From assembly GCF_001889005.1 (NCBI RefSeq), contig NZ_CP018153.1:2452501-2516500 (forward strand): a stretch of DNA of 64,000 nucleotides, read 5' to 3'. The translations under genes were made by a program, and so were the position numbers. The first letter of the stretch is position 1; every line of letters starts with the position of its first letter. Under the pieces are notes generated by a model. It worked only from the letters and a program-made list of their open reading frames with translations. It made no database searches and was not told where the DNA came from. Origin of the DNA: Christiangramia salexigens (GTDB lineage Bacteria > Bacteroidota > Bacteroidia > Flavobacteriales > Flavobacteriaceae). This document shows, piece after piece, positions 24,359 to 51,385 of this stretch.

Positions 24359-25276
24359 ATGGAATTTATAGACTACTACAAATTACTTGAATTAGATAAA
24401 TCTGCAAGCGCTGCTGAGATCAAAAAAGCTTACCGCAAACTTGCGCGCAAGTACCATCCAGATCTAAATCCAAATGATAAAGCGGCACAGGCTAAATTTC
24501 AGCAGATAAACGAGGCTAATGAAGTCCTTAGCGATCCCGAAAAGAGAAAGAAATACGATCAATATGGCAAGGATTGGAAACATGCCGATCAGTTTGAAGA
24601 AGCCAGAAAACAGCAATCCGGCTCCGGTGGCTATGCTGGTGGATTTAATACGGGAAGAGGGCAAAGCTATAGCGGCAACTTTGATGATGATACATTTTCA
24701 GACTTTTTTGAACAAATGTTCGGTGGTGGTGCCAGATCGCGAGGTTCAGCGCGGGGAGCTCATTTTAAAGGGCAGGATTTTAATGCCGAACTTCAGTTAA
24801 AACTCAGTGAAGTATATAAGAGTCATAAAAGGACATTAACCGTAAATGGGAAGAACATCCGGCTTACAATTCCTGCTGGCGTAGAAAATGGCCAGACCAT
24901 AAGAATTAAAGGGCATGGAGGGCCCGGAATTCAGGGAGGGCCAAAAGGCGATCTGCTAATAACCTTCATTATATTAAACGATACAAGTTTTCGCAGGGAG
25001 AAGGAAAATCTCTATTCTACACAGGAGATCGATCTTACTACGGCAATACTTGGGGGAGAAATCGAAACGAAATCCTTTGATGGAAAGTTGAAATTAAAAG
25101 TGAAACCGGGGACCCAGAATGGTACTAAGGTAAGATTGAAAGGAAAAGGTTTTCCTAAATATAAAAAGCATGAGCTTCACGGCGATCTGTTCGTAACCTA
25201 TCAGGTTAAGATTCCGGAAGACTTAACAAGTCGTCAAAAAGAATTATTTCAGGAACTACAAAAAACAGGATTATGA
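24359..25276 (+). CDS. cbpA: DnaJ-family co-chaperone CbpA
   Basis: Stimulates DnaK ATPase and may bind DNA as in the E. coli curved-DNA-binding protein. 305 residues: J domain (1-70) with the essential HPD in KYHPDLNPND, a Gly/Phe-rich linker (about 83-120), then two C-terminal substrate-binding beta domains (IPAGVENGQTIRIKGHG and VKPGTQNGTKVRLKGKGFP). No CxxCxGxG zinc-finger repeats, which separates it from DnaJ proper. The stop overlaps the start of a CbpM-type gene by 4 bp, which confirms the CbpA assignment. Confidence 0.93.
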   Translation: MEFIDYYKLLELDKSASAAEIKKAYRKLARKYHPDLNPNDKAAQAKFQQINEANEVLSDPEKRKKYDQYGKDWKHADQFEEARKQQSGSGGYAGGFNTGRGQSYSGNFDDDTFSDFFEQMFGGGARSRGSARGAHFKGQDFNAELQLKLSEVYKSHKRTLTVNGKNIRLTIPAGVENGQTIRIKGHGGPGIQGGPKGDLLITFIILNDTSFRREKENLYSTQEIDLTTAILGGEIETKSFDGKLKLKVKPGTQNGTKVRLKGKGFPKYKKHELHGDLFVTYQVKIPEDLTSRQKELFQELQKTGL

Positions 25277-25563
25277 AAGAAGAAAACCTGATTCCTGCAG
25301 AAGAAATTTGTGTGAGATATAAGGTGGAGCATCAGTTTTTAATTTCACTTTACGAAAGTGGGATCATTGATGTGATCACCATCGAAAAGACCCAATATAT
25401 TCCTTTAGATCATCTTCATGAATTTGAAAAAATGATAAGATTATACCGTGATCTGGATATAAATGTTGAAGGTTTGGAGGCAGTACATCATTTATTAAAA
25501 CAAATTGAAAGTCTGCAAAAAGAAAACAGGCGGTTAAGAAACCGCCTGAATTTGTTTGAATGA
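25273..25563 (+). CDS. cbpM: Chaperone modulator CbpM
   Basis: A 96-residue MerR-like protein that binds and inhibits the J domain of CbpA in characterised systems. It begins MKEENLIPAEEICVRYKVEH, a helix-turn-helix-like start typical of the family, has a core with YIPLDHLHEFEKMIRLYRDL, and ends in a coiled-coil helix (about 70-96). Its start codon lies inside the cbpA stop (ATGA overlap), so the two are translationally coupled. The stop abuts that of the convergent VPS10-like gene with no spacer. Confidence 0.88.
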   Translation: MKEENLIPAEEICVRYKVEHQFLISLYESGIIDVITIEKTQYIPLDHLHEFEKMIRLYRDLDINVEGLEAVHHLLKQIESLQKENRRLRNRLNLFE

Positions 25564-28416
25564 TTATTTAACTTCGAAAACTGTCTCTGCCGAGCCGTTG
25601 TCCATCTTAACCTTTAGTTTGTATCTTCCTTTTGGAATATAAAGCTTTTCATTACTGGCTTTTTCGATCTCCAGTTTAGAATCCTTTTCTTTCAACTTCT
25701 TAAAACCGGTTTCGGAGATCGTAAGATCATAATTAAAACTATTGAAACCTTTTTCGGCTTCTTTATTTATAGATTGAACTTCTATTCCGTTTTCAGAAAC
25801 CACAGAAATATAAACTTTCCCTGCCTTTGGGCTATAATAGGTTACAGGTAATTCCGGCTGATAAGGATCCATCCATTTGCTATAAGAATTACCCCAGCGA
25901 GATGAAAAACGAATACTTGCATTGGTGCTTACCATCATCTCGTTTTTCAGGGCTTTGTTATCCATATTAGAGATCGCAGCAATATTTGTGATATAAATAG
26001 ATCTTCCGTGAGTTCCCACGACTAGATCTTTTTCGCCGGGGTGAACTCTCAGATCGTGGACCGCCACATTTGGCAGATTGTTATCAAATGCTTCCCAGCT
26101 GGCTCCCTGGTCTAACGAAACGTACAATCCGTTGTCACTTCCCAGGTATAAAACATTTTCGTTATTTGGATCTTCCCTTATTACATTAACCGGGGATAGT
26201 GGCAGGTTTGAACTAATGTTTTTCCAGGACTGCCCGAAGTCTTCTGAAACATAAACATAAGGGGTGAAATCGTCTGATCTGTATCCATTTAGAGTTGCGT
26301 AAACTCTGGATTCTTTATGTTGAGAAGCAATAAGTCTGGATACCCATAGATCTTGCGGAAGATCTTTGCCGATATTGGTCCAGCTACTTCCTGAATTTTT
26401 AGTGATATGAATTTTACCGTCATCACTTCCTGTATAGATCAATCCGAATTGAAATGGCGATTCACTTATGCTGGCAAGCGTTCCATATGGTACATCGCCT
26501 TTCTTTCCTCCGCCCGTGAGGTCTTCAGAAATGGCGGTCCAGGTATTTCCCTGATCCATACTTCGCATAAGTTTGTTGCCGCCCAGATATAAAATATCCT
26601 GATTATGGGAGGATAATAGGATAGGAGTTTGCCAGTTAAATCTATAAGGGTTTTCCCCTAATTCGTGTTTAGGTTGAATATAGACCTGTTCACCAGTTTT
26701 TCGGTTGATCCTGAAGTAATTACCAAACTGAAATCCTGTATACACAATATTCGGATCTCTGGAATCGATTTCTACCTGCATCCCGTCGCCACCCATAAGT
26801 CTTTCAAAACTATAATCTCCTGAAGTTGTCCAGCCAGAATTTTCTTCATTGGTATGAGGTCCTGTCCAAACCCCATTATCCTGTAAACCTCCATAAACAT
26901 TATAGGGTTCCTGGTTGTCTATGTTAATTGCGTAAAACTGTCCAACAGAAGGGGAGTTGCTTATTTGCCAGTTTTCGCCATCATCGTATGAGATGTTTAC
27001 ACCACCATCATTACCATCTATGAGATGTCCGCTTCTGTTTGGGTTGATCCAAAGGGCATGGTGATCTGAATGTACATTTTCGGCAACTATGGATTTAAAG
27101 GTTTTTCCACCGTCTTTGGATTTCAGGATTGGAACGCCGTAAACATAGATCGCGTCCTTGTTGCTTGGATCCACATGGACCATTCCGAAGTAATAGCCGT
27201 AACTATAATAGAGATCGTCCAGATAGTCATCATGAGTTCGTTTCCAGGTCTTTCCGCCGTCTGAACTTTTGTAAACTTCTGCTCCTATTACAGGAGTGTC
27301 AAAAAGTAAAGAATTCGCATCTTCGAGATAAGAGGCCAGGTCTGAGGCCTGAATCCTGTTTTCTCTGATCATTTTCTTTACGCTCTCTGAAGTGTATTTT
27401 TTCTGAAAATCATTGTCCCTGAGGTATTTTTCAAGTTTTTCATCTTCCAGCTTCAGAACTTCCGAATTTTTCATCTTTTTGAAATCGTCCTTTTGCAGAC
27501 CTTTCTTTTCAGTCTTTTTTTCTTCAGGTCTTCTGGACTGATTGTCTACGATCGCATAAACCGTATTGTCATCATATACACTAAGTCCAATTCTACCTAC
27601 ACCTTCACCTGTTGGGAAGCCTGAATCTGCTGTGGAAACTTTGGACCAGGTAGCGCCTGCATCTGTGCTTTTATAGATACCACTGTTTTCACCGCTTTCC
27701 CTGAAATTCCAGGCTTTTCTATCTTTGTCCCAGGCAGCGGCATACATTTGATTATAGTCATTTGGGTTGACCGCAATGTCTATTATGCCTGTCTCATCAT
27801 TGATAAATAAAGTTTTATTCCAGGTTTTACCGCCATCGGTAGTTCTGTAAACTCCTCTTTCTGAATTGGAAGAATATAAGTGCCCGGTAACACCAACAAC
27901 TAATTCCTGAGAGTTTTCGGGATTGATCAGGATTCTGCTTATATGATGGGAATCGGGTAGCCCCATGAATTTCCAGGTTTCACCCTTGTCATCAGACTTT
28001 AATAAACCTATCCCTGCGTAAGAAGATCTGGAAGCATTAACCTCTCCGGTGCCAACCCAGATTGTTCCGGTTTTCCAGTCTACGGCAATATCTCCAATAT
28101 TTTGAGTAGGACTATTGTCCATTACAGGCTTAAAGCTGGTTCCGTTGTTGTTGGTATACCATAATCCTCCCGAAGCGTAAGCCACATAGAATTCGGTGGG
28201 ATCTTGTGGGTTTACCGCAAAATCTGTCACCCGACCACTCATAACCGTCGGGCCAATATTTTTTAATGGTAAATTTCTTACGATAGAGTTTTTTGTGAGC
28301 TGTTCCTTTTTCTCAAGACTTTCCTGTAAAGCGGAGCCTGAAGTGGCTGTATTTTGAGCGAAAATTGGGGAAACAGAGAGTAGAAGAAGACTGAATAATC
28401 TGTAACTGTGTTTCAT
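25564..28416 (-). CDS. Secreted VPS10/sortilin-like BNR propeller protein
   Basis: A 950-residue exported protein of unknown substrate. It has a signal peptide to about FAQ (residue 21), then many beta-propeller blades with BNR/Asp-box-type motifs (S-x-D-x-G-x-T-W), for example SDDKGETWKF, TTDGGKTWNK, STDAGATWSK, SSDGGKTWKR and SMDQGNTWTA. Two ten-bladed-type propeller lobes, as in VPS10/sortilin proteins, fit the length. A charged Lys/Glu-rich insertion (about 295-360) interrupts the blades, and the last ~130 residues form a beta domain resembling a sorting or adhesion module. Single gene, convergent with cbpM. Similar Bacteroidota proteins are annotated as glycosyl hydrolase or VPS10 proteins without tested activity. 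Confidence 0.85.
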   Translation of the reverse strand: MKHSYRLFSLLLLSVSPIFAQNTATSGSALQESLEKKEQLTKNSIVRNLPLKNIGPTVMSGRVTDFAVNPQDPTEFYVAYASGGLWYTNNNGTSFKPVMDNSPTQNIGDIAVDWKTGTIWVGTGEVNASRSSYAGIGLLKSDDKGETWKFMGLPDSHHISRILINPENSQELVVGVTGHLYSSNSERGVYRTTDGGKTWNKTLFINDETGIIDIAVNPNDYNQMYAAAWDKDRKAWNFRESGENSGIYKSTDAGATWSKVSTADSGFPTGEGVGRIGLSVYDDNTVYAIVDNQSRRPEEKKTEKKGLQKDDFKKMKNSEVLKLEDEKLEKYLRDNDFQKKYTSESVKKMIRENRIQASDLASYLEDANSLLFDTPVIGAEVYKSSDGGKTWKRTHDDYLDDLYYSYGYYFGMVHVDPSNKDAIYVYGVPILKSKDGGKTFKSIVAENVHSDHHALWINPNRSGHLIDGNDGGVNISYDDGENWQISNSPSVGQFYAINIDNQEPYNVYGGLQDNGVWTGPHTNEENSGWTTSGDYSFERLMGGDGMQVEIDSRDPNIVYTGFQFGNYFRINRKTGEQVYIQPKHELGENPYRFNWQTPILLSSHNQDILYLGGNKLMRSMDQGNTWTAISEDLTGGGKKGDVPYGTLASISESPFQFGLIYTGSDDGKIHITKNSGSSWTNIGKDLPQDLWVSRLIASQHKESRVYATLNGYRSDDFTPYVYVSEDFGQSWKNISSNLPLSPVNVIREDPNNENVLYLGSDNGLYVSLDQGASWEAFDNNLPNVAVHDLRVHPGEKDLVVGTHGRSIYITNIAAISNMDNKALKNEMMVSTNASIRFSSRWGNSYSKWMDPYQPELPVTYYSPKAGKVYISVVSENGIEVQSINKEAEKGFNSFNYDLTISETGFKKLKEKDSKLEIEKASNEKLYIPKGRYKLKVKMDNGSAETVFEVK

Positions 28417-48594: not shown

Positions 48595-48933
48595 ATGAGC
48601 ACTTTAAGAAACACAGTACAATTAATCGGACATGTAGGTAATGATCCTGAGATCCTTAATCTTGAATCAGGTAAAAAACTGGCAAAATTCTCCATTGCCA
48701 CAAATGAGAGTTATAAAAATGCAAAGGGCGAAAAGATCACCGATACACAATGGCATAATATAGTGGCCTGGGGTAAGACCGCAGAACTGGTTGAGAATTA
48801 TGTTCCTAAGGGTAAAGAAGTTGGGATTGAAGGAAAATTAACCAGCAGAAGTTATGAGGATAAGGAAGGCGTAAAGCGATATATCACAGAGGTGGTTTGT
48901 AACGAATTATTGCTTCTGGGAGGTAATAAGTAA
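48595..48933 (+). CDS. ssb: Short single-stranded DNA-binding protein
   Basis: 112 residues forming one OB fold: LRNTVQLIGHVGNDPEI (about 3-19), KLAKFSIATNESY and WHNIVAWGKTAELVENYVPKG (about 52-72). It ends right after the fold (NELLLLGGNK), so the acidic, Phe-ending tail that standard bacterial SSB uses to recruit repair and replication proteins is absent. It is therefore probably a second, specialised SSB and not the housekeeping copy. A repeat cluster lies upstream and a very strong terminator, built from a duplicated piece of the histone-deacetylase gene, lies downstream. Confidence 0.88.
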   Translation: MSTLRNTVQLIGHVGNDPEILNLESGKKLAKFSIATNESYKNAKGEKITDTQWHNIVAWGKTAELVENYVPKGKEVGIEGKLTSRSYEDKEGVKRYITEVVCNELLLLGGNK

Positions 48934-48939
48934 TCAGAT

Positions 48940-49087
48940 TCAAAAATAAATCTCCTGAGCGAGTCTGTAGGTATTGGCGTGAGCTTCAATAATGAGTTTG
49001 ATGTCTTTTGAATAGCCACCGCCCATACTACATTGTACAGGAATGGTTAGATCACGACAGGTTTGCAGAACGAACCTGTCGTGATCT
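48940..49087 (-). pseudogene. Duplicated 3' fragment of the histone-deacetylase-family gene
   Basis: On the minus strand this stretch encodes the same final residues as the intact gene at 50483-51385, from about DRFVLQTCRDL to AQEIYF, and ends in TGA (the intact gene ends in TAA). It has no start or catalytic part, so it is a gene fragment of some 47 codons. The one internal difference (GCT versus GCA for Ala) is silent. It lies 6 bp behind the ssb stop. Confidence 0.88.
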
Positions 49088-49089
49088 TT
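48942..49089. repeat. Direct repeat, copy 1 (148 bp), behind ssb
   Basis: Matches 50485-50632 in the same orientation at a constant offset of 1543 bp with 145 of 148 identical positions; differences are at 48958, 49082 and 49084. The last two make the terminal palindrome perfect. The repeats bracket the TSP3 lipoprotein gene. Confidence 0.93.
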
Positions 49090-49091
49090 TT
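49049..49091 (+). terminator. Strong terminator of ssb at the end of repeat copy 1
   Basis: AGATCACGACAGGTT pairs perfectly with AACCTGTCGTGATCT (15 bp) around the 9-nt loop TGCAGAACG and is followed by TTTT. The same sequence in copy 2 is coding and has two mismatches in the stem. Confidence 0.88.
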
Positions 49092-49234
49092 CTATTAAAA
49101 TAGAAAAATGTGAGGCTCATAACTTCTATGTTAAAATTGATTAAAAAGTAGGGTTTTCCTCTATAACATGTAGTTGTGCTCATATTTAAATTTAACTATT
49201 CAATTTTAGCAGTTTTTCTATCTGCTTAAATGAG

Positions 49235-49286
49235 ATTCCCTACAATAATTCCCTACAATAATTCCCTGCAATAATTCCCTGCAAAA
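49235..49286 (+). repeat. Four tandem 13-bp repeats upstream of the TSP3 lipoprotein gene
   Basis: Units ATTCCCTACAATA (twice), ATTCCCTGCAATA and ATTCCCTGCAAAA lie head to tail, 79 bp before the gene start. Tandem repeats here could shift promoter spacing by slippage. The remainder of the 431-bp gap between ssb and the lipoprotein gene holds repeat copy 1 with its terminator; in 49092-49234 I see nothing recognisable. Confidence 0.9.
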
Positions 49287-49364
49287 TGCACTTTGTTCAT
49301 TTAAGATAATGGCTTGGGCAGACTTAAACTAATGATTTATTTACTAATCTTTATACCAATTATT

Positions 49365-50480
49365 ATGAAAACAATTAAATTTTTGAGTGTAGTATTTTTT
49401 ACAGGGATTTTGTTAGGTAGCTGTGAAAAAGAAAATTTAGCCGGAGTTGAGAGCGAACTAGATGAAACATTGCAGATAAAATCTAAATTGGAACTGTTTA
49501 GGGAACAGTATAGTCCAAACTATAACAAATCTCATAGTACAGATTTAAACTATTTAGATGGATTATGTGATGGAGCACCTAAAACCCATTTAACATCAGG
49601 AAGTATATTCGATAGTGGACACTGGGACTATTATACCTTTTCAGGTAATGCAGGAGATGTTGTTAGTATTCAGGTAAATAGACTCACGGATGAAATGGAT
49701 CCAGCTTTTACTCTTTTCTTTGGTACTTCAAATTCTACGGTAGGTCTAAATGATTCTTCTTCATCAAATGCTGACTTAACATTTTTAGAATTCCGCGATG
49801 ACGAAATATATCCTCTTAGTTGTCATGGAGATCCTTTATTAGAAAATTACGTTTTACCCTCTACAGGAGACTATACCCTTGCGATTTATGATTTTATTAG
49901 CTGTGGCCCTGCACCTTATGGATATGAGATATTTGTCTCAGGAATTGATATTGCAAATTGCAATACTATATCAGATTCTGATGGAGATGGAATTGAAGAT
50001 ACTTTAGATAATTGTCCTAATATAGCAAATCCAGATCAAGCTAATAATGATGGAGACTCAGAAGGTGATGTTTGTGATGATGATGACGATAATGATGGAA
50101 TTGAAGACACTTTGGATAATTGTCCTTTTACTGCCAATCCAGGTCAGGAAAATTATGACGGCGACTCAGAAGGGGATGCTTGCGATAATGATGATGATAA
50201 TGATGGGTGTCCAGATGATGTAGATCCTAATTTATCCAATATAGAACCTACAGTCATTATTGATGGTTGTGATACCGGAGTAGAAAATAGAACTACATTG
50301 GAATGCGGTATTATGTTTTCTGATAAAATGGATGATTTAGAGGTGGGTAACTATAGAAACCATGGAGCTTTTGTAAGAACCGTTGCTAAGATGGTAAATT
50401 CCTGGTACAAGGATGGACTTGTTACCTTAGCTGAAAAGGATGCTCTTATGACGTGTGCAGGACAAGCAAATATTCCATAA
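49365..50480 (+). CDS. Lipoprotein with PPC-like domain and thrombospondin type 3 repeats
   Basis: 371 residues from the ATG at 49365, which gives a clean lipoprotein signal (ILLGSC, Cys20); an in-frame ATG 17 codons upstream would add a second hydrophobic stretch. Residues about 65-195 resemble a pre-peptidase C-terminal (PPC) beta domain ([30 protein letters not shown]). Two calcium-binding thrombospondin type 3 repeats follow (about 205-275; [28 protein letters not shown]). The C-terminal ~60 residues hold [16 protein letters not shown] and a Cys pair, a module seen behind TSP3 repeats. No enzyme domain is visible; a surface binding role is likely. The gene lies between two direct repeats. 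Confidence 0.85.
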
Positions 50481-50482
50481 AA

Positions 50483-51385
50483 TTAAAAATAAATCTCCTG
50501 TGCGAGTCTGTAGGTATTGGCGTGAGCTTCAATAATGAGTTTGATGTCTTTTGAATAGCCACCGCCCATACTACATTGTACAGGAATGGTTAGATCACGA
50601 CAGGTTTGCAGAACGAACCTGTCGCGTTCTTTACAGGCCTCAATAGAACAGGATAACCTTCCCAGTTTGTCGGTATCCAGAATATCCACCCCAGAGAGAT
50701 AGAATATAAAGTCCGGATTTACTTTTTCAATTAATTCCGGTAGTACATTTTTAAGTTTATCGAGATAAACTTTATCACTTGTGCCATCCTCGAGTGCGAT
50801 GTCAAGATCTGACTTTTCTTTTTTAAATGGATAATTGCCTTTCCCGTGCATAGAAAAGGTATAAACACTCGGGTCATTTTGAAATATCTCTGCCGTTCCA
50901 TTGCCTTGATGGACGTCGAGATCTACGATAAGGATCTGTTTGGCAAATCCTTTATTTTGAAGATACCGGGCTCCAATTGCCTGGTCGTTCAAAAGGCAAA
51001 AAGCCTCAGCTCTGTTGCTGTAGGCATGATGAGTCCCTCCAGCAATATTCATGGCGATTCCATTCTCGATAGCAAATTCGCTGGCTTTAACGGTTCCATC
51101 GGCAATTATTTGTTCCCTGTCTACTAATTGTTGAGATAATGGAAATCCTGACTTTCTGATTTCTTTTTTGTCTAATTCCAGATTGATGAGGCGTTCAAAA
51201 TAATTAGCCTCATGTACCTCTAATACGTGAGCAGAATCAATAAAACCTGGTTCAAAAAAATTGCTCTCCTCACATGTGCCTTCATGAATTAATTGTTCTG
51301 GAAGAAGCTCATATTTTTCCATGGGGAAACGATGCCTTTCCGGTAAAGGATGTTTGTAGATGGGATGATAAGCAATCTTGAGCAT
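50483..51385 (-). CDS. Histone deacetylase family protein
   Basis: 300 residues of the zinc-dependent HDAC/acetylpolyamine amidohydrolase family. Active-site motifs are intact: GGTHHAYSNRAEAFCLLND (about 116-134), the metal-binding DLDVHQGNGT (about 159-168), the middle FSMHGKGNYPF and the late YLSGVDILDTDKLGRL. Bacterial members remove acetyl groups from small molecules or proteins; the substrate here is unknown. The stop is 2 bp from the convergent TSP3 lipoprotein stop. Its last 148 bp are duplicated behind ssb. It lies downstream of metG on the same strand but behind a terminator. Confidence 0.9.
   Translation of the reverse strand: MLKIAYHPIYKHPLPERHRFPMEKYELLPEQLIHEGTCEESNFFEPGFIDSAHVLEVHEANYFERLINLELDKKEIRKSGFPLSQQLVDREQIIADGTVKASEFAIENGIAMNIAGGTHHAYSNRAEAFCLLNDQAIGARYLQNKGFAKQILIVDLDVHQGNGTAEIFQNDPSVYTFSMHGKGNYPFKKEKSDLDIALEDGTSDKVYLDKLKNVLPELIEKVNPDFIFYLSGVDILDTDKLGRLSCSIEACKERDRFVLQTCRDLTIPVQCSMGGGYSKDIKLIIEAHANTYRLAQEIYF
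50485..50632. repeat. Direct repeat, copy 2 (148 bp), 3' end of the histone-deacetylase gene
   Basis: The original copy, since it is the in-frame end of a complete gene. The palindrome inside it (50592-50606 with 50616-50630) has two mismatched pairs, whereas copy 1 has none. Confidence 0.93.

Follow-up and report, generated by a model that had tools for sequence, protein, structure and literature searches.

Terminators that lie inside the coding sequence of a convergent neighbour are already known from Escherichia coli. That survey counts 58 convergent overlaps, in 19 of which one gene uses a putative rho-independent terminator, and describes the stretches involved as having dual coding and regulatory sequence (PMC2174442). 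Template switching can both create and repair hairpin stems, as set out for RNA genes in a second study (PMC8794818). A third report treats overlapping 3' UTRs of convergent genes, including the excludon (PMC7154746).

Here we describe a locus within a window of 64,000 nucleotides (64 kb) of the Christiangramia salexigens genome, where the 3' end of a histone-deacetylase-family gene is present on both sides of a lipoprotein gene. As in the E. coli overlaps, a putative terminator lies within the coding sequence of the opposing gene; unlike the cases in the cited portion of that survey (PMC2174442), the apparently dual-use stretch has been duplicated upon gene addition and the free copy has changed. 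The locus resembles the products of template switching in that one stem carries multi-base changes that restore pairs and a block has given way to a reverse-complement copy, and would differ from the RNA genes of that study (PMC8794818) in that the putative switch took place at a terminator and was tied to gene insertion. Any ssb or lipoprotein transcript extending as far as the hairpin would run antisense to the deacetylase mRNA, as with overlapping convergent 3' UTRs. In contrast to the excludon, as far as the cited part describes it (PMC7154746), regulation is not in evidence here, and the ssb 3' UTR would, since the duplication, be a separate antisense copy. In the literature searched, mostly short of full text, we found no description of a shared terminator or gene end duplicated around an inserted gene.

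A direct repeat of the deacetylase 3' end flanks a lipoprotein gene

The genes and larger features of the locus are as follows.

48595..48933, + strand: ssb, single-strand binding protein, 112 aa (ORF list; Pfam SSB PF00436, E 7.5e-34)
48942..49089, + strand: deacetylase 3' end, ssb-side copy; now the ssb 3' UTR and putative terminator (direct repeat)
49106..50484, + strand: unique insert, GC 0.34 vs 0.39 for the window; full-length match within the genus only to itself
49235..49284, + strand: 13-bp tandem repeats of the ATTCCCTRCAATA type, upstream of the lipoprotein gene
49359..50480, + strand: lipoprotein, 373 aa, with a weak PPC domain and TSP3 repeats (Pfam, alignment)
50483..51385, - strand: histone-deacetylase-family gene, 300 aa (ORF list, Pfam); stop codon 50483-50485
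50485..50632, + strand: in-gene copy of the repeat, which is the deacetylase 3' end in antisense (direct repeat)

The initial annotation had reported a same-orientation duplicate of 148 bp behind ssb and a lipoprotein segment bracketed by the gene end on both sides, and both are present in the window. The two copies (48942-49089 and 50485-50632) have a spacing of 1543 and are identical at 145 of 148 positions. A search of the whole genome (2,978,889 bp, one contig) returned these as the only full copies, with E values of 9e-73 and 1.5e-68; a third, weak match proved to be the hairpin of the repeat aligned with its own reverse complement. Additionally, the pair is the sole direct repeat of at least 60 nt reported within the window. 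Relatives whose genomes are at least 99% complete span 3.2-4.6 Mb, and three incomplete ones (G012, G019 and G020) are smaller than the window genome.

The three mismatches fall at 0-based positions 16, 140 and 142 of the repeat. The initial annotation had held that the only internal difference was silent. This is correct for position 16, but positions 140 and 142 fall within the hairpin described below and would alter the protein, from KERDRF to KDHDRF when translated by eye. Past the end of the repeat, a differing block of 9 bases is followed by 7 identical bases in register (49099-49105 = 50642-50648), a match with a chance probability of 9e-5. Since identity resumes in register beyond the block, the stretch originally duplicated may have measured about 164 bp.

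The mechanical open reading frame of the lipoprotein opens at TTG 49314; the ATG at 49359 yields a lipobox and agrees with the start of the nearest relative, which is 86% identical and lies on a 1932-base JGI contig. Alignment revealed that the C-terminus is native, having the same ending as those of its relatives, and 2 bp separate the lipoprotein stop from that of the deacetylase gene. Thus, the lipoprotein gene now presumably occupies the place where ssb once stood. Over its full length the insert DNA had no other match in the 24 genomes of the genus, the remaining partial matches being mostly to TSP3 repeats, and the 13-bp tandem repeats were absent from the other 23 genomes with 2 mismatches allowed. 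Rfam gave one sub-threshold match, located elsewhere. Named Christiangramia loci are among the best matches of the window deacetylase.

ssb and the deacetylase gene abut in a third of the relatives

The deacetylase gene is present in 22 of the 24 genus genomes, the window included, and the distance between the ssb and deacetylase stops was measured in the 21 relatives. In 7 of these (G008, G023, G021, G017, G022, G012 and G014) the genes stand tail to tail with a gap of 1-10 bp, and in two named Salegentibacter loci they overlap by 10 bp. The proposal that ssb and the deacetylase gene were formerly convergent neighbours is supported by these junctions, which also represent the empty site. Gaps in the remaining 14 relatives are 66-69 bp (n=3), 167-188 bp (n=2), 794 bp (n=1) and 2.2-5.2 kb (n=8); in the inspected loci of the last group a sodium symporter, an M16-type peptidase or both lie between, on the deacetylase strand (names assigned by eye).

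In a tree of the deacetylase gene, the window is nearest to G008, with a gap of 1, and to G010 and G004, with gaps of 2206 and 2214 (clade support 96/91). As its nearest relatives are mixed in gap size, the tree alone leaves the ancestral state of the junction unsettled. The ssb-side copy itself preserves the former junction. TCA at 48940-48942 is a minus-strand TGA located 6 bp behind ssb, and inspection by eye places the start of the copy inside this TGA; the deacetylase gene proper now terminates in TAA (50483-50485, also by eye). Because the ssb-side copy retains the old deacetylase stop codon so close behind ssb, the two genes appear to have abutted in the window lineage before the lipoprotein gene came between them.

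No duplicate of the deacetylase end was detected at any of 101 other loci, some of them from genomes present twice, when as much as 6 kb was searched on one side with blastn-short (E 1e-3).

The junction is variable within the genus: its spacing is of seven kinds and extends from 1 bp to 5.2 kb. Two Salinimicrobium loci (L101 and L106) carry two tandem ssb genes near the deacetylase gene.

The deacetylase 3' end contains a hairpin where ssb abuts

Three smaller features lie at the ends of the two copies.

50592..50630, + strand: hairpin embedded within the deacetylase coding region, 13/15 pairs, -19.3 kcal/mol, tail TTTACA
49049..49087, + strand: perfect 15-bp hairpin followed by a T-run (49087-49091), putative ssb terminator, d-score 29.7, -25.9 kcal/mol
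49090..49105, + strand: replaced block of 9 bases (49090-49098), then the in-register remnant AATAGAA of 7 bases (49099-49105)

The repeat extends from the deacetylase stop codon to the far side of the hairpin, where it ends. In the deacetylase gene, the + strand palindrome sits 109-147 bases inside the stop and is followed by TTTACA; with its tail CGTTCTTTAC the in-gene copy is listed by a simple terminator scan, whereas a stricter score does not pick it. A stem of at least 12 of 15 pairs occurs in 7/7 abutting and 0/14 non-abutting relatives of the genus, the in-gene copy of the window having 13. Thus abutting gene ends and a hairpin within the opposing coding sequence, the combination expected of an embedded terminator, coincide in all seven abutting relatives; there the hairpin is on the reverse strand of the deacetylase gene, 115-124 nt past the ssb stop, and is the best one behind ssb.

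Comparison with 1000 synonymous recodings gave p values of 0.001-0.007 in these seven relatives, as selection at synonymous sites would produce, relatedness being only partly controlled, and 0.001 for the in-gene copy of the window; among the 14 non-abutting relatives one (G001) fell below 0.01. Across 53 Flavobacteriaceae rows, from which the window, duplicates and loci without ssb in reach were omitted, z was -2.5 or lower in 9/9 abutting vs 5/44 non-abutting rows (Fisher p 4.5e-7, kinship ignored; rows L077 and L099 have a shifted deacetylase register). When any hairpin with a T-rich tail within the final 252 bases was counted, p <= 0.05 was reached by 10 of 13 ssb-abutting rows and by the window, compared with 4 of 55 rows with a codirectional neighbour and 3 of 18 with a spaced convergent one. 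This test used 60 recodings, for which the smallest possible p is 0.016. Some of the loci compared here represent one genome in two collections. Furthermore, the arginine whose codon forms part of the stem is encoded by AGG in 12 of 13 ssb-abutting rows, as it is in the window; elsewhere AGG occurs there in 8 of 95 (codirectional 4/55, spaced convergent 3/18, other abutting neighbours 1/22), some of these with a different residue. In an alignment of 11 sequences, 90.3% of stem cells pair, vs 36-52% with slid partners.

Relatives in which the genes do not abut generally have a hairpin nearer to ssb: in 13 of the 14, a terminator-like hairpin of positive d-score lies 13-39 nt behind the gene, the exception being G006, where none was found. 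Given the strong embedded hairpin in the seven abutting relatives and the weaker one in the other 14, 13 of them with their own ssb-proximal hairpin, the deacetylase 3' end probably doubles as the ssb terminator. One strand would supply sense codons and the other would end the convergent ssb transcript in vivo.

An alternative is that the hairpin belongs to the deacetylase mRNA, or is a codon-level accident inherited in two genera, and has no part in ssb termination. Several observations favour this or count against an ssb terminator. The embedded hairpins have poor U-tracts, with d-scores of -29 to +8 in the abutting relatives; these scores are low because coding keeps the tail poor in T. Phylogenetically independent pairs are few: four on the DNA tree, of which 3.8 on average go the same way (p 0.125), and three on the protein tree, of which 1.9 do so (p 0.5), numbers too small for significance, with none in the opposite direction. 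Covariation among the 11 sequences is weak, two-sided change being seen in 2/15 pairs, a value reached in 16/500 shuffles, while 9/15 pairs are invariant. Additionally, the hairpin is found without a close ssb. In the Salegentibacter group (14 loci) all six loci with a gap of -10 or -4 have 12 pairs, and 3/8 loci without a close ssb have at least 12: L147 and L150, with 12 pairs and ssb outside the 1.5-kb flank, and L157 (gap 91), with 14. In the Zunongwangia group, with no ssb in the flank, 5/6 loci have 12-13 pairs. Such hairpins may be relics, may serve other neighbours or may not be terminators at all. Against this alternative stand the division of the genus into 7/7 and 0/14, and the fact that the ssb-side copy lies outside the deacetylase gene and has nonetheless been bettered in stem and T-run. 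We therefore judge it improbable, though a reading to be taken seriously.

A general rule by which any gene abutting the deacetylase gene would use an embedded terminator was unsupported, 3 of 22 loci reaching p <= 0.05.

The ssb-side copy resembles a freed terminator

The ssb-side copy possesses the hairpin of an intrinsic terminator, stable, G+C-containing and paired at 15/15 positions, and a U-tract, the TTTTTCTATT tail, directly after the stem (d = 29.7). The bases of the in-gene copy are those of the relatives at the two hairpin differences and across the 9-base block; thus, the ssb-side copy is the one that has changed. Both of its hairpin changes restore pairs, bringing the stem to 15/15, a gain of two pairs that 45 of 400,000 randomly drawn triple substitutions achieved. 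The block at 49090-49098 became the reverse complement of the bases that follow it, by which the tail gains Ts and an inverted repeat with 9-bp arms is formed; 8 of 5000 shuffles have such a repeat at this place. This second inverted repeat (49090-49105) reads TTTTCTATT-AA-AATAGAAAA and is a possible template-switch scar.

We consider it likely that the shared 3' end was in dual use, was copied as the lipoprotein gene entered, and was then improved in its ssb-side copy. Entry of the lipoprotein gene would have been viable only with the shared end present twice, ssb keeping its terminator and the deacetylase its C-terminus, and selection would have kept both copies. That the repeat ends in the hairpin and T-run, which the initial annotation had not remarked, supplies a reason for the retention of the gene end in duplicate. 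The ssb-side copy, released from coding, would later have gained its perfect stem and longer T-run, the in-gene copy remaining similar to those of relatives. The embedded hairpin would be the former terminator of ssb and now, at best, that of the lipoprotein gene.

This history gives a concrete reason for a gene end to occur twice around an insert: two functions on one stretch of DNA, separated by copying. It would constitute a testable case in which a conflict between coding and termination is relieved by duplication, the unduplicated state surviving in seven related genomes. It also cautions that gene-end duplications flanking an insert need not signal a mobile element.

Origin of the second copy

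Template switching at the palindrome is the favoured origin of the copy. If replication switched template at the palindrome, ran on into foreign DNA and came back where the shared end starts, the arrangement would arise in one step, with fold-back scars such as those seen. Selection on the freed terminator could, alternatively, be the source of the pair-restoring changes.

The main rival to template switching is integration by homologous recombination, in which a single crossover would have brought in a circle or transformed DNA with the deacetylase end already on it. The hairpin at the repeat end would then be there by chance and the repeat would be uninformative on terminators. One cassette between two direct repeats, with the old flanks outside, is the expected product of such an event, which moreover requires no recombinase. 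A donor in which the lipoprotein gene and the deacetylase end are adjacent is required, however, and none was present in the 24 genus genomes; viral contigs contained just two weak, partial relatives of the lipoprotein. Neither does a crossover predict that the repeat should extend from stop codon to hairpin. We regard this route as rather unlikely.

The gene end on both sides, the cargo gene inside and the lower GC of the insert had suggested a mobile unit, whether an integrase element, an insertion sequence or a cassette, that regenerates a gene 3' end upon integration. As the initial annotation had noted, there is no recombinase nearby: neither recombinase nor transposase was identified among 13 proteins scanned with Pfam (10 flanking proteins plus ssb, lipoprotein and deacetylase; two without a family). 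Nor was an inverted pair reported at the insert ends (49090 and 50484), and a duplication of at least 148 bp is not a short target duplication. With the insert found once in this genome and unmatched in the genus set, and the 101 other loci free of such a duplication, the mobile-unit interpretation is highly improbable and we do not retain it. An assembly artefact is scarcely credible for a one-contig genome in which a repeat of just 148 bp has unique flanks and copies that differ at three sites.

Returning to template switching, a broader proposal can be offered speculatively, with a greater chance of being wrong than right: that shared terminator palindromes both block and drive gene insertion. 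Replication would stall at the palindrome, fold back, switch template and return upstream, and only insertions furnished with the shared end in duplicate would survive, the extra copy then evolving into a better terminator, an escape from the conflict between coding and termination. Were the process general, new genes would enter at convergent gene ends that are tightly packed, each arriving with a copied gene end.

Other convergent junctions

Between 11642 and 55085 of the window, 7 of 10 convergent pairs of open reading frames (at least 90 aa each) have stops no more than 4 bp apart or overlapping. In 18 stretches from relatives, 23 of 54 convergent pairs are equally tight (<=4 bp or overlapping); these stretches cover the same locus, and junctions repeat among them. 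A second candidate for an embedded terminator lies at 25273-28416 of the window, where a minus-strand gene at 25564 has a strong, terminator-like hairpin with d = 31.5 inside the coding sequence of its convergent neighbour, at a gap of 0.
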